Virus record (IMG/VR): IMGVR_UViG_3300022707_001487
Coordinates: 1-36,779 of that record
Strand: one strand, 5' to 3'
DNA length: 36,779 bases
Origin: a virus
Shown here: piece by piece, positions 30,087 through 35,229 of the stretch
How the letters are laid out: each line of letters opens with the position of its first letter
Position numbering within the stretch: the stretch's first letter is position 1
The notes under the pieces: model-generated
Seen by the model: the letters and a program-made list of their open reading frames with translations, nothing else
Told to the model about the DNA's origin: nothing
The model's database searches: none
Position numbers and translations under genes: made by a program

Positions 30087-32198
30087 TTATCTTGCAAACC
30101 TGGTAATGAGTTTAGTCACCGGTTTGATTATCGGGTAATCATACGCTATGAAATAGCCACCAGCATCATTAGTATGATCATTATCGTGCTTTTTATCTGG
30201 TTCACCAGCATCATTCCATGCCTGCTGTTCAAGATTGTCGGCGTATGTGGGACATCTATCGACATTTACCAGATATTTTCGAATGTCTTTATTATCGCAA
30301 AAAAGTTGATTCATTGCCAATACGCGATCTTTAACGAATGGATTCTTTTTATTAGCTATCACACTAAACCCAGCTTGCTCTAATAAACTGATGTCTGTCT
30401 TACTGGCATTTACTGATTTTCTTGAGTCACCAGAGGCATCAGGATAGATTCTAATAGTGGCTTTTTGATACCGTTGTTGGATGATGGTTATCATTTCAGG
30501 AGTATCATAAGCATTGATTATTTCATCTACTGCTATGGGGTTACCTTTACGCTTTACATGGATAATAGCGGCCATTTTACCTACGTTGAAATCCATACCA
30601 ATAAAGACCGGTTCCTCGCCATTCCATATTTCATCTGAATTATTCTTCTTTCTATCGAAATTATTATAGACCGTTCCTGTTTTGAGGTTAACGAATAACC
30701 CCATTACATAGGCTGCCACCAACTCTACAGGGTATGTCTCAAGCAAAGAATCAATATAATCATCAGGTAGATATTTTTCGTTTTCATAGGATGAGGCTTG
30801 CACCATTGAATAAGATGCTTTTGGATCTTTCTTGAATGTCTCATAGACGAACAAGAATCCCTCTGGTGTGGTGGTAACCCCTATGCCATTTTCAACACCG
30901 TCTATCTTGAGCCTCATACGTGCAATTATTTTAATCCACGCTAGGTTAGCTTTATCTTTTGGTAAAACATCTATCTCATCGACTAATGCACGCGCTATTT
31001 TAAATCCAATAATTGAGCCTGGGTTATCCATTGAACGGCAAATTACTGTCCCATAGTAACGGCCATTCCGGTATACGTGGCATTCTTTATTGCTTACTTT
31101 TATATCAACAGTAAAACCGAGCAGGTGACAGGCTTCTTCAAAGGTTGGATAAAAAATATCTCTAATAGCAGAATATGAAGGCGCGAAATATCCCTGTACA
31201 GTTCCAGGATGTAAGGAAAAGAAGTTAAGTAAATCGAGGCACCCGACAAACGTCTTGCCACTATTATGATGAATGAACCCATTTTCACAAACGTAATTAT
31301 TGGTATCTAATACTTGCATATCATAGTATGGTGACTCTTCCTCTACCTTAACCCCGATAACTTCAATAGGTGATAATGATGAATGTTCGTCAAGAGAATA
31401 TTGCTCAACATTGTAATGGTGTTCTAACGTCTCAACAGATAGCCGTTCTTTCTGGTGATAGCAAGAAGTATGTCCAACGAACAATGCTGCAATTTGATCT
31501 CCCAAGAAGGCGAAAAGGTTCAGCTTATGGATCGTTGAATGCTTCCTATAAAGGCGGTAGGCGAATCGATAGAGACGGTTATGTTTTAGTTTCAGCGCCA
31601 ATTGAGCACCCAAGCGCGAGAATGAGAAAGAACCGTAAAACAGGGGTAATGCTTGAACATCGCCTAATAATGGAACAGGAACTTTGTCGTTTTCTGACTG
31701 ACCTAGAAATTGTTGACCATATAGACGGGCTTCGCTTGCATAACCACCCAAGCAATCTTCGTTTATTTTCGTGTAATGCTGAACATCTAAAGGCAACGAT
31801 AACAGGTCAGATCCCTTCATGGAGCAAAGAAGGTCTTCAGCGCATGAACTCAAACAGTCACCAACGCGAAGCTGGTCGATCCGTAAATACTTATGGTCGG
31901 ATGAAAAAATCCGGTGATGCGCGCTTGATACAAATTCTCCATGCGTTGTTGAGACTCGGTAAAGATTCGCCCTACCTTTTGGGAACGAGCCGCCACTTAA
32001 AGAAAGCTGGAATTTTTGATTTCTCTGATTCCATGATAAAACTCGCATTGGTCGATGTATATCGGAAATACGAATAAGACCATGTTCTGTGAATATTTTG
32101 GTGTCAGGGTGAAGACATCCATAGCCGCCCACATATGCCCTGTATTTGGTATTTAATCCGTTCAGGAATATATTTTGTGGTGCACTAAGACTTGGCAT
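30087..32198 (-). CDS. terL: Terminase large subunit, interrupted by an intein in Walker A
   Basis: The precursor is 703 residues. The first 27 ([20 protein letters not shown], then AYVGGYG) and residues 313-703 ([12 protein letters not shown]...) join to a 418-residue TerL with a rebuilt Walker A GGYGSGKT. Walker B is [12 protein letters not shown]. The nuclease has acidic residues in [18 protein letters not shown] and HTNDAGGY. TerL drives DNA into the prohead and cuts the concatemer. The intein (28-312) splits the ATP-binding loop, so the phage cannot package without splicing. The start overlaps the TerS end by 14 bases. Confidence 0.9.
31263..32117 (-). mobile_element. Intein in TerL Walker A, 285 codons
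   Basis: It begins with Cys1 in [20 protein letters not shown] (block A). Block B is [15 protein letters not shown], where Ser takes the usual Thr place. It ends [16 protein letters not shown], then FIHHN (blocks F and G), followed by Ser+1 of the host protein. The usual block F His is Asn here. The central ~180 residues show no LAGLIDADG or HNH motif in this frame; instead an HNH gene lies on the opposite strand (31376-32077). Boundaries are set by GGYG/C and HHN/SGKT. Confidence 0.92.
31376..32077 (+). CDS. HNH homing endonuclease encoded antisense inside the TerL intein
   Basis: This 233-residue protein is counted from the ATG at 31376; a GTG at 31370 and an ATG at 31379 are alternatives. 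It has a perfect AGGTGAT ribosome site at 31368-31374. N-terminal residues suggest an HTH ([20 protein letters not shown]). The HNH_3-type core is [20 protein letters not shown], then [40 protein letters not shown]. The catalytic D-H and the downstream N residues are intact, and a basic C-terminal tail follows. It lies wholly inside the intein DNA on the other strand. It probably cuts intein-less terL genes and so spreads the intein. Confidence 0.85.
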   Translation: MMNVRQENIAQHCNGVLTSQQIAVLSGDSKKYVQRTMLQFDLPRRRKGSAYGSLNASYKGGRRIDRDGYVLVSAPIEHPSARMRKNRKTGVMLEHRLIMEQELCRFLTDLEIVDHIDGLRLHNHPSNLRLFSCNAEHLKATITGQIPSWSKEGLQRMNSNSHQREAGRSVNTYGRMKKSGDARLIQILHALLRLGKDSPYLLGTSRHLKKAGIFDFSDSMIKLALVDVYRKYE

Positions 32199-32679
32199 TA
32201 GTTACTGTGATTTCTTTCTTGGGCTCTGCAACAGTGTAAATGATTTCGAGAGGCTCTACGTTTTCAGTGTCCCTCGGATTATCATCTGTGTCCCTAAGCT
32301 TTAAATCCCTGGCAATAATATTAGGATTTAACAGTTCTGCTGCTGCTCCTGTAAACTTTTGATTGTATATAATTTCATCTGCGCGCGTAGTGACGTCCAT
32401 TAAATCTTTATTTTTCCGATACTTTCCCCATGTTGTTGGACACACATCGATGTAGATACAAAGCCCTGATATAGTCATTGCTCGCATCTTTGACACTTCA
32501 CAGGAAGTTACAGTTCCCTGATAATGAAATAGTTTTTCTTCTTTGAGGGGATTATCTTCTATCCAGTTGAAATACTCTACACAGGCGTTCCATAGGATAT
32601 GAGGTTTTGTGAATGTTGGTTTTCTACCATGAGTACTTCGCGCTTTCCAAAAGCGGTTCCCTTTAGTGGCCGGGCACAT
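32185..32679 (-). CDS. terS: Terminase small subunit (P22 gp3-like packaging family)
   Basis: This 164-residue protein has the recognised pattern [17 protein letters not shown], then [60 protein letters not shown] and [20 protein letters not shown]. TerS binds the packaging start site and activates TerL. This family is linked to headful (pac) packaging, consistent with a circularly permuted genome. Its ATG shares a base with the stop of the GIY-YIG gene (TAATG), and its end overlaps TerL by 14 bases. Confidence 0.88.
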
Positions 32680-33353
32680 TACAAGTACCTCATATTTGTT
32701 TTGTTCTTGTTTTGCCCTGACAACATAGCGCCTAAGGTAGTACGTTTAATTACTTCTTTTTTGGCTGCTTCTGTAAGACTGTAATAAACTGCTCCTGTTT
32801 TATCGTTAATCACCTGTTTACAGTTAACTGGAGGCATTCCTTTGGTGAGGGCATTCCCTTTCATTCTATCGCTCATTTTTTTTCTTGTTTTAAGGGAGAA
32901 TTTTCTGCCGATCATTTTTAGCCTTTGCTTCTCTGGCATCTTCCTTCCCATCCTGGACTTGCTCATTTTAGCTTTAGCTGCTGCGCTCGCTTTTTTCCCT
33001 GTGTTGGAACGTGCTATTTTTTCTCTGGTTTCATTAGAAAGCCTTCCAGACTTATCTCCATAGCCTGTTATTTTGCAATTGAGCCCTACTTTAGATGTCA
33101 CTTTATATTTATTCTGCCAGAATCTCTCCTTTTCATTCAGAGTGCATTCATTGTCACAATGTTCAATTAATTCGAACTTGTGGTTTTCTACTCCATATTT
33201 TAGAAAAGAGTTGTATAGCCTTGGCTGGCCATCACAGTGCATTCCTCTGTATTTTGCGAAACGTGAAAATATATCTACCGATTGACCGATATAAATACGT
33301 TTGCTTGGAGAAGTAATGCTATAGATCCCTTGATTTTTTTTCGGTGCTGCCAT
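32679..33353 (-). CDS. GIY-YIG homing endonuclease with NUMOD repeats
   Basis: This 224-residue protein has its catalytic domain at residues 8-95 ([20 protein letters not shown]), then SRFAKYRG with the family Arg, and [11 protein letters not shown] with the catalytic Glu. NUMOD3-type DNA-binding repeats follow ([50 protein letters not shown]), and then a NUMOD1-like end ([18 protein letters not shown]). It sits directly before terS, sharing a base with its start. It is a mobile free-standing endonuclease that probably cuts related phages near their packaging genes. Confidence 0.92.
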
Positions 33354-33421: not shown

Positions 33422-33760
33422 TTATCGACTAAATAAAGTAAACGGTGCCGATCTTCCTGCTAAATTCTTTGGTGTGCCATCGATATATATTCCGTAGACA
33501 GTCCAATTGTCACCGCTAGGGGTGAATAATCCAGCCTCGGATTCATATTCCCAATACTTGTTTGCAAAGAATGTTTGCTCTACACCATCAACCGTTGCCG
33601 TTGCATCTACCGTTGGGGCTGTTACTCCATCGACAGAGGATTTAGTGATTTGCGAACCATCGGTTTTAGTAAATACTAAACTCAGTTCAGTATTTCCAGA
33701 GAGATCGAAATCTGAATTAACTCGGATTATTTTTCCTACATCGTCTTCTTTAATGCTCAT
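33422..33760 (-). CDS. Small virion-type protein, BppU-like beta domain possible
   Basis: This 112-residue protein is counted from the ATG at 33760 (MSIKEDDVGKIIRVNSDFDL), which overlaps the previous stop as ATGA. It is beta-rich: NTELSLVFTKTDGSQITKSS, FANKYWEYESEAGLFTPSG, NWTVYGIYIDGTPKNLAG. This resembles the small N-terminal domain of baseplate upper proteins that describe a value on a scale (BppU type). Among late accessory genes it is probably a tail or capsid decoration part. Confidence in the family is low; that it is a gene is clear. Confidence 0.65.
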   Translation of the reverse strand: MSIKEDDVGKIIRVNSDFDLSGNTELSLVFTKTDGSQITKSSVDGVTAPTVDATATVDGVEQTFFANKYWEYESEAGLFTPSGDNWTVYGIYIDGTPKNLAGRSAPFTLFSR

Positions 33761-35229
33761 GCTGAATCCTCGCAAATTATGCTATTAAATCCCTCGGCAG
33801 TGGTTAGGATACCATTGAATGCTTCAATTAGGTTAATTTCGCTTTGCATTCCTTCAATAGTTATTACTCCTTGAAATGCTTCTACACAATCTGGACTTGG
33901 TACAACACCGGCAACCGTGATTGATTGAGCAATATTAGTTTCAACAACCTGACCGACCTCAATAGATACTGCACCGGTGACAGGTGTAATAGCCTGGGCT
34001 ATATTTGTTTCAATTACCTGAAGTACTGTAACAGCTATTCCTTGCAAGGCTGTCACGGGTTGGGCTGTGTTAAGTTCTGATACTTGGTTAACTGATATTG
34101 AAACACCGCCCACATCGACAGTGACAGGCTGTGCAGTATTATTCTCAACGACTTGAGTAACCAGTATTAAAGCGCCCCCAGTGTCCACTGTGACAGCATT
34201 AGCGGTGTTATTTTCCACAACTTGGTTAACTGGAACGTCAAGATTACCCGCTAATGCTGTAACAATTTGAGCCGTATTTGTTTCAACTACCTGACCGACT
34301 TCTATAACTAAAGCGTTTAACGGTGTAATGGGTTGTGCTATGTCGGTTTCAGTGACTTGACCAACTAGAATAGAAACAGCGCCAATACCGACAACGATGG
34401 CCTGGGCTATGTTTGTCTCAACAACTTGTGTTACTGGTATTGTCTGTCCTGCGTCTGCCTCTGGTATAAAATATGTTGGTAATTGCTTGGGTTTTAATAT
34501 TGTCCGCCAGAAATCACTATTAGATTTGAATATCTCTGATGCTGATAACTTTCTTCTCCAAATAGCAACACCAAATATACTGCCTGTCCAATGATTATCT
34601 GGTGAGCCAACCCTACCCAGCGCGCCCAGAGTAAATTGGTTTACTAAATCCCAGTTTGAGGGGGTTACATCGTTTGTTGCTGCAAATATACCATCTATAT
34701 ATATATCTACAGTAGCGCCATATTTCACAATAGTAAATATATGCGGAAGGCCATCATTTATAGTTACCCCTCCACTAAACTGATTACCACTATTATTCTG
34801 CGACCTTACAAAAGCTGTTCCTGTTGCGCCTCCTTGAAAATATACAACAGGAGTATCAGAAGCACTCGATCCAAATCCAGTAGCAAATCCAGAGCTGCTA
34901 GTTGTTTGGAAAACCCATGATATTGTTAAGTCACCATTACATATGTCAGCAAAGGGTGATTTAAAACTACCAGTGAACTGAGTTGCTTCATCACTACCAT
35001 TGTAGTCTACCTTACGACCCCGACCACCGATTGAATTTGTAGGTGAGTTTACAGGTACGCCGATATTACCAGATACAACATCAATAAACGTATTACCAAC
35101 AGGCAGTAAAATCGCATCTAAGCCCTTACCAAGACCGCTGAAATCTGCATTAACAACAGACGCCTTAGGGTTTGGCTTTGATTTTTTAAAGCTAGGGTGA
35201 AACCTTTTGGGCAGTATTATCAGCCCCAT
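33757..35229 (-). CDS. LamG-domain virion protein with eight tandem 22-23-aa repeats
   Basis: This 490-residue protein has residues about 65-235 that look like a LamG/concanavalin-type fold (VDYNGSDEATQFTGSF, GLPHIFTIVKYGATVDIYID, GSIFGVAIWRRKLSASEIF). Residues about 264-442 are eight repeats of the form (V/I)xVxQVVExN(T/I)AQ(P/A)(V/I)T. A short unrelated tail (VIT-IEGMQSEINLIEAFNG) ends the protein. LamG domains often bind glycans, so a receptor-binding or capsid-decorating role is plausible. The repeats probably form an extended stalk or solenoid. The gene starts 2 bases after its neighbour. Confidence 0.75.
   Translation of the reverse strand: MGLIILPKRFHPSFKKSKPNPKASVVNADFSGLGKGLDAILLPVGNTFIDVVSGNIGVPVNSPTNSIGGRGRKVDYNGSDEATQFTGSFKSPFADICNGDLTISWVFQTTSSSGFATGFGSSASDTPVVYFQGGATGTAFVRSQNNSGNQFSGGVTINDGLPHIFTIVKYGATVDIYIDGIFAATNDVTPSNWDLVNQFTLGALGRVGSPDNHWTGSIFGVAIWRRKLSASEIFKSNSDFWRTILKPKQLPTYFIPEADAGQTIPVTQVVETNIAQAIVVGIGAVSILVGQVTETDIAQPITPLNALVIEVGQVVETNTAQIVTALAGNLDVPVNQVVENNTANAVTVDTGGALILVTQVVENNTAQPVTVDVGGVSISVNQVSELNTAQPVTALQGIAVTVLQVIETNIAQAITPVTGAVSIEVGQVVETNIAQSITVAGVVPSPDCVEAFQGVITIEGMQSEINLIEAFNGILTTAEGFNSIICEDSA
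33905..34440 (-). repeat. Coding tandem repeats, eight copies of about 67 bp
   Basis: The protein repeats are QVVETNIAQAIVV, QVTETDIAQPITP, QVVETNTAQIVTA, QVVENNTANAVTV, QVVENNTAQPVTV, QVSELNTAQPVTA, QVIETNIAQAITP and QVVETNIAQSITV, each 22-23 residues apart. At DNA level the copies have diverged, so they are old and kept at protein level. They are not a CRISPR array. Confidence 0.85.

Follow-up and report, generated by a model that had tools for sequence, protein, structure and literature searches.

An intein interrupts the terminase gene terL of the viral record IMGVR_UViG_3300022707_001487, and an HNH endonuclease gene lies on its opposite strand. The element is very probably a mobile intein of distinct architecture, in which the homing endonuclease gene is nested antisense inside the intein and not fused in frame with it. 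One stretch of DNA would code for a splicing protein on one strand and for a homing enzyme on the other. Conservation in the family is high enough to allow a direct measurement of how overlapping genes evolve; along a single element, the signal by codon position flips. The window, i.e., the whole 36,779-bp stretch analyzed, contains the following features of this locus.

30087-32198, minus strand: TerL reading frame, open over 703 codons
32118-32198, minus strand: TerL N-extein, ending in VGGYG directly before the intein
31263-32117, minus strand: complete 285-aa intein in the Walker A motif (Cys1...His-His-Asn, then Ser+1; Hint fold in the AlphaFold2 model)
31842-32117, minus strand: first (N-terminal) part of the Hint splicing domain, with blocks A and B
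31398-31835, minus strand: intein linker, open in the sense frame, with weak protein conservation and mostly predicted to be disordered
31263-31385, minus strand: second (C-terminal) part of the Hint domain, with blocks F and G, mostly beyond the HNH overlap
30087-31262, minus strand: TerL C-extein, starting with SGKT and containing Terminase_6N/6C
31368-31373, plus strand: putative Shine-Dalgarno site AGGTGA, 5 nt upstream of ATG 31379
31379-32077, plus strand: antisense HNH endonuclease reading frame, 232 aa plus stop (alternative in-frame starts ATG 31376 and GTG 31370)
31385-31513, plus strand: helix-turn-helix predicted at the N-terminus of HNH, its structural matches being FapR/Lrp-like at Z about 5
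31655-31786, plus strand: beta-beta-alpha-metal core of HNH (EHR...DHIDG...N...N...H), facing intein residues about 112-155
31814-32074, plus strand: helical C-terminal region of HNH, on the strand opposite intein residues 16-102 (N-terminal Hint, block B)

The original prediction, made from the DNA letters, of a complete intein in the TerL Walker A motif is confirmed by the open reading frame, the terminal residues, Pfam and the predicted fold. The insertion separates GGYG from SGKT exactly, and Pfam detects Terminase_6N/6C together with Intein_splicing (3e-7, slightly under the curated cut-off). An AlphaFold2 model built from a 65-sequence alignment predicts with confidence that residues 1-90 and about 245-285 adopt a Hint fold, and that a largely disordered linker joins them; its best structural match is the NpuDnaB intein (Z 19.2; 134 residues superposed at rmsd 1.4). 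Across the 65 sequences C1, H68, H283/H284 and N285 are invariant or almost so, and the +1 residue, Ser in the window, is Thr or Cys in some relatives; the window intein thereby holds the whole Hint catalytic set of Cys1, block B (S/T)xxH, terminal HN and a +1 Ser, Thr or Cys. It is an in-frame insertion with an intact intein-free counterpart, because TerL proteins 58-61% identical to that of the window carry VGGFG-SGKT uninterrupted, which represents the exact empty site. Judged by Hint fold, catalytic residues and empty homologue, the insert is an intein, and it would be expected to splice. The linker was said to lack any endonuclease motif in the sense frame, and indeed Pfam finds no endonuclease family there. 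In canonical large inteins the endonuclease and the splicing domain share one reading frame, whereas here the endonuclease is antisense: the other strand of the linker codes for the N-terminal region and core of the HNH protein.

How firmly can the antisense protein be assigned? Matched against HNH profiles, as had been proposed, the plus-strand frame 31370-32077 hits Pfam HNH_3 (7e-5; 22.8 bits, slightly below the 24.8 cut-off that its relatives surpass) and, over nearly its full length (residues 6-234), PHROG_10730 'HNH endonuclease' (2e-66). The HNH_3-type gene had been placed at 31376-32077; its identity stands, and its start is shifted to ATG 31379, which is the likely one because homologues open with 'MN' and because of the 5-nt spacing to AGGTGA. 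The ribosome site recognized at the outset also holds up: matches to the Shine-Dalgarno sequence of at least 4 bases precede 57 of 63 HNH starts and 219 of 888 control ATGs, a comparison that somewhat favors HNH, since each HNH start was picked as the best among a small number of in-frame candidates. The DHIDG...N...N residues, described as intact, belong to a core that is invariant in 59 sequences (E93, H94, D113, H114, N122, N126, N133 and H136), although this core faces a shorter part of the intein, residues about 107-155, than the residues 105-180 first given. A structure model from the 59-sequence alignment (mean pLDDT 89) predicts an N-terminal helix-turn-helix, the HNH core and a helical C-terminal region. 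The best structural match of the modeled core is the homing endonuclease I-HmuI, with a modest Z of 7.0, a strength that alone can arise by chance, and helix-turn-helix matches predominated in a Foldseek search. In a plus-strand promoter scan, promoter-like matches were not clearly above shuffled expectation. An HNH core with conserved His and Asn residues is what a homing endonuclease is expected to have, as is its coding inside a mobile self-removing element that shows sporadic presence, empty sites, transfer and decay, and the antisense gene has both.

The overlap comprises 234 of the 285 intein codons (14-247), as predicted, with block B inside and Cys1 of block A and blocks F and G outside; constraint on both proteins, however, is confined to a part of it. 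The register is fixed, HNH wobble positions facing intein second positions, and we followed divergence by codon position in 25 disjoint intein pairs that are 70-96% identical. Opposite HNH the fastest codon position is the HNH wobble, and at each non-overlapping end it is the intein wobble, both in 25 of 25 independent pairs. Divergence at intein codon positions 1/2/3 is 0.18/0.43/0.13 in the linker (HNH wobble) and 0.15/0.09/0.45 beyond HNH (intein wobble). Over the 25 disjoint pairs, intein codons 141-170 give 0.15/0.40/0.09, the HNH frame being selected there and the intein frame not, and the last 20 codons give 0.05/0.02/0.42, the intein frame being selected. Codons 14-70 have no free position and diverge little everywhere (e.g., 0.06/0.08/0.10 at codons 31-50), as both frames are selected; the helical C-terminal region of HNH, encoded opposite, is likewise constrained in both. 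About 75 codons (about 15-90) opposite the N-terminal splicing domain are doubly constrained, and the linker is just kept open in the intein frame. The HNH-frame wobble recurs in a divergent second set of relatives described below.

Permuting synonymous codons while preserving the protein and the codon set provides a measure of chance. Shuffled intein codons reached the antisense reading-frame length of the window in 0 of 400 trials and, across 74 inteins, in 143 of 29,600. When the HNH codons were shuffled instead, the intein frame remained open in 38 of 29,600 trials; shuffled HNH codons thus seldom leave it open, implying that the linker is maintained in sense despite its amino-acid drift. 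Coding on two strands far beyond chance, with both frames under selection, is confirmed. Within the linker, intein residues about 117-144 (window 31685-31768) are confidently predicted to form a sense-frame helix. We rejected this helix as a real domain, because codon positions there track the HNH frame, and it probably arises secondarily from the conservation of HNH on the opposite strand.

The suspicion that odd linkers in other phage terminases might share this arrangement proved correct, with more than 80 found, and so did the possibility of a wider class: a long antisense frame is kept in 81 of 82 distinct related inteins, always in one fixed register, the remaining alternative frames being typically short. 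Searching IMG/VR for close relatives with the HNH protein alone returned nothing, and alignment-based queries were required; scans recovered 74 loci with the HNH query and 80 with a separate sense-intein query. Of the latter, 79 have an antisense HNH by profile search, the exception being a 197-aa mini-intein (L168); the profile was made from HNH-bearing inteins, and 79 of 80 accordingly holds for that intein family and not for inteins at large. Antisense-HNH inteins occur in diverse TerL families, and every identified host gene of the close set is terL. The divergent second set (L028, L029, L048-L073) is also antisense, in matching register; its hosts are TerL where identifiable, along with an AAA protein (L066) and a clamp loader (L055), whose intein occupies the Walker A position as in TerL. 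Among annotated phages, the HNH is present in eight Pectobacterium/Dickeya phages (58%) and in Pseudoalteromonas phage PHS3 (48%), and all nine have the sense intein at the identical site; in the two inspected at sequence level, Taid and PHS3, an intact intein in the TerL Walker A motif holds the HNH on its antisense strand. Species genomes yielded seven HNH loci, six of them with an opposing intein (L024-L029), one being an Enterobacter cloacae prophage. In a sample of Enterobacteriaceae species genomes 1 of 295 was positive, namely a genome already found, which points to rarity in bacterial genomes. HNH matches in Streptomyces, Mycobacterium, Halobacterium and Vibrio phages were rejected as free-standing, with no intein opposite.

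In the HNH tree, 60 close members form one clade (91/96); deep branches are weak, and common origin is supported for this core clade and not for all antisense HNHs. The tree label 'not_in_intein' denotes 'not antisense', and five loci so labeled are, by Pfam, conventional inteins with HNH in frame, at least three of them hosted by helicases:

L080, 3248-5854: in-frame HNH_3 intein with helicase domains
L083, 3413-5644: in-frame HNH_3 intein with helicase domains
L085, 3728-5926: in-frame HNH_3 intein with helicase domains
L087, 2194-5016: in-frame HNH_3 intein
L088, 3008-6016: in-frame HNH_3 intein

In-frame and antisense intein layouts thus coexist among HNH_3 proteins. A large host frame in another locus (L150, 3878-7252) combines an antisense-HNH intein at Walker A with a downstream in-frame LAGLIDADG_3 match, which probably marks a second, conventional intein.

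Several comparisons indicate that the element moves. The TerL gene of the E. cloacae DSM 26481 prophage differs from those of the intein-free E. coli ET729 and phage PHB10 by a single gap matching the 1008-bp intein, with extein identity of 91-97% close to the site and 79-94% farther away. Compared with the intein-bearing E. coli MEI003, its exteins are 74-78% and its intein 88-96.5% identical; this far greater likeness of the intein argues that the element moved between alleles. Similarity of element and host gene is discordant more broadly: the window and L027 share 61% in the exteins and 46% in HNH, and the window and PHS3 share 22% in the exteins, 67% in the N-terminal Hint half and 49% in HNH. 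In the divergent set, identity between L052 and L056 is 94% over the HNH region and 76% over the exteins. Broken antisense frames, which would speak against a functional gene, were seen only in decayed-looking copies: L019 has a single stop in HNH and an intact intein, L163 has lost the core of HNH, and L168 lacks HNH altogether, its antisense frame being riddled with stops. Six further loci (L136, L134, L162, L166, L155 and L043) have the N-terminal part of HNH deleted and the intein intact. These truncated or HNH-less relatives look like a decay series, the expected end of a homing cycle.

We envision a scenario whereby the sense strand would yield a TerL-intein precursor from which the Hint domain excises itself at little cost to TerL, and whereby a separate message from the antisense strand, with its own Shine-Dalgarno site, would give rise to a helix-turn-helix HNH endonuclease. 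This enzyme would cut the intein-free TerL Walker A codons of a co-infecting phage or prophage, and repair would copy the intein and the nested gene jointly. After fixation the endonuclease may decay while the splicing frame is retained, as in the truncated and HNH-less relatives. The homing logic would be that of ordinary inteins, the coding arrangement alone being different. A bolder extension, which we put forward tentatively and think rather doubtful, is that inteins with antisense endonuclease genes are an old self-standing mobile class, retained in a single codon register over dozens of diverged loci and in at least two kinds of host gene, their opposite strands serving as an expression switch that separates homing and splicing in time. 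The endonuclease would then be made upon transcription of the opposite strand, and TerL upon transcription of the late strand.

Might the antisense frame be a non-functional shadow of intein codon use? Long antisense frames arise by chance in GC-rich genes, and some unrelated loci showed them, but the codon-position pattern refutes this reading, to which we assign practically no weight: in all 25 independent pairs the substitution periodicity of the linker fits the HNH frame. Moreover, the protein has homologues among HNH proteins both free-standing and in frame, synonymous recoding destroys the frame, and the frame fills with stops once HNH is lost (L168), so that the intein sequence itself does not force it to stay open.

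Other alternatives accept a functional protein and dispute its role. Some HNH proteins, e.g., HK97 gp74, stimulate terminase, and conceivably the window HNH is a packaging accessory nuclease of this type, placed in terL for co-regulation and not for homing, as the restriction of identified close-set hosts to terL might suggest. We hold this to be very unlikely, given that the antisense family also inhabits the clamp-loader gene at its Walker A position, that closely related phages without the whole unit still keep TerL, that HNH decays while TerL and the intein remain intact, that HNH and intein travel as one unit, and that the HNH core best matches a homing endonuclease. Alternatively, a former homing gene might by its transcript or product now mainly regulate TerL, for instance by delaying late gene expression; an antisense message across terL would converge with late transcription, and the layout is stable across large divergence. 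An intact HNH active site is unnecessary for regulation, however, yet the catalytic residues are retained in 59 diverse members, and sporadic distribution and recent transfer indicate current mobility, which renders this possibility improbable as well. A mobile intein with an antisense homing endonuclease gene hence remains our preferred reading.

The textbook intein is a single polypeptide with its endonuclease in frame. Canonical inteins contain an in-frame LAGLIDADG or HNH endonuclease, an example cited in PMC5050341 being the HNH intein of Dalgaard et al. 1997. The window element shares with them the Hint domain, insertion in a conserved ATPase motif and a homing endonuclease, and its HNH is of the Pfam family found in the in-frame inteins L080, L083 and L085. 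The canonical endonuclease, however, belongs to the intein polypeptide and is freed together with it, whereas that of the window, encoded on the other strand, would be a separate product. Group I introns of nuclear rDNA are known to include some with an antisense homing endonuclease gene, such as Didymium L2066 (PMC9548176). There, too, a self-removing insert bears the gene on its other strand, and the gene is expressed independently, as would be the case in the window; in contrast, L2066 is an RNA intron of nuclear rDNA with a His-Cys enzyme, and its gene occupies a peripheral RNA segment with no two overlapping protein frames. The ShiLan element (PMC11855218), which our search matched, resembles the window element as a phage homing element with a hidden HNH of the same broad family overlapping an open frame. 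It is an out-of-frame HNH on the same strand of a phage methylase, with no splicing domain detected and no Shine-Dalgarno site, and is thought to stay in the methylase as an insertion. As defined there, the ShiLan type differs from the window element, which has a splicing domain and an antisense HNH. Mycobacteriophage TerL P-loop inteins are known and share the Walker A site (PMC5050341); a text search of that article returned no mention of an antisense gene in them.

An intein search of annotated actinobacteriophages found no close relative of the window intein. A 2025 preprint by Gosselin et al. (10.1101/2025.01.02.630785), cited in PMC11855218, reportedly deals with actinobacteriophage inteins of 'non-canonical architecture'; going by its title and citation, these are restricted to actinobacteriophages and possibly have overlapping frames. 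No description of an endonuclease gene antisense inside an intein was found in the literature searched, to which Gosselin 2025 and Gorbalenya 1998 did not belong. The antisense arrangement is apparently a new architectural variant of the homing intein, widespread and undescribed.

The records inspected reveal an annotation blind spot, in that HNH is missed or TerL is truncated, hypothetical or a pseudogene. In the Pectobacterium phages Taid and Ymer TerL is annotated 'hypothetical' and HNH is unannotated, and in PHS3 the TerL annotation is truncated. In E. coli MEI003 (L173, 1601-3888) RefSeq lists TerL as a pseudogene without N-terminus, and HNH is annotated on the other strand. Carriers include cultured phages (the Pectobacterium phages and PHS3) as well as prophages, and the arrangement is therefore directly testable.

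Two other genes on the minus strand of the window deserve mention. Next to the small terminase gene lies a GIY-YIG/NUMOD3 endonuclease gene (32679-33353), a second homing-type endonuclease by the packaging genes. Farther along, 33757-35229 encodes a 490-aa protein, possibly of the tail or a fibre, whose C-terminal half contains QVVETNIAQ-like repeats.
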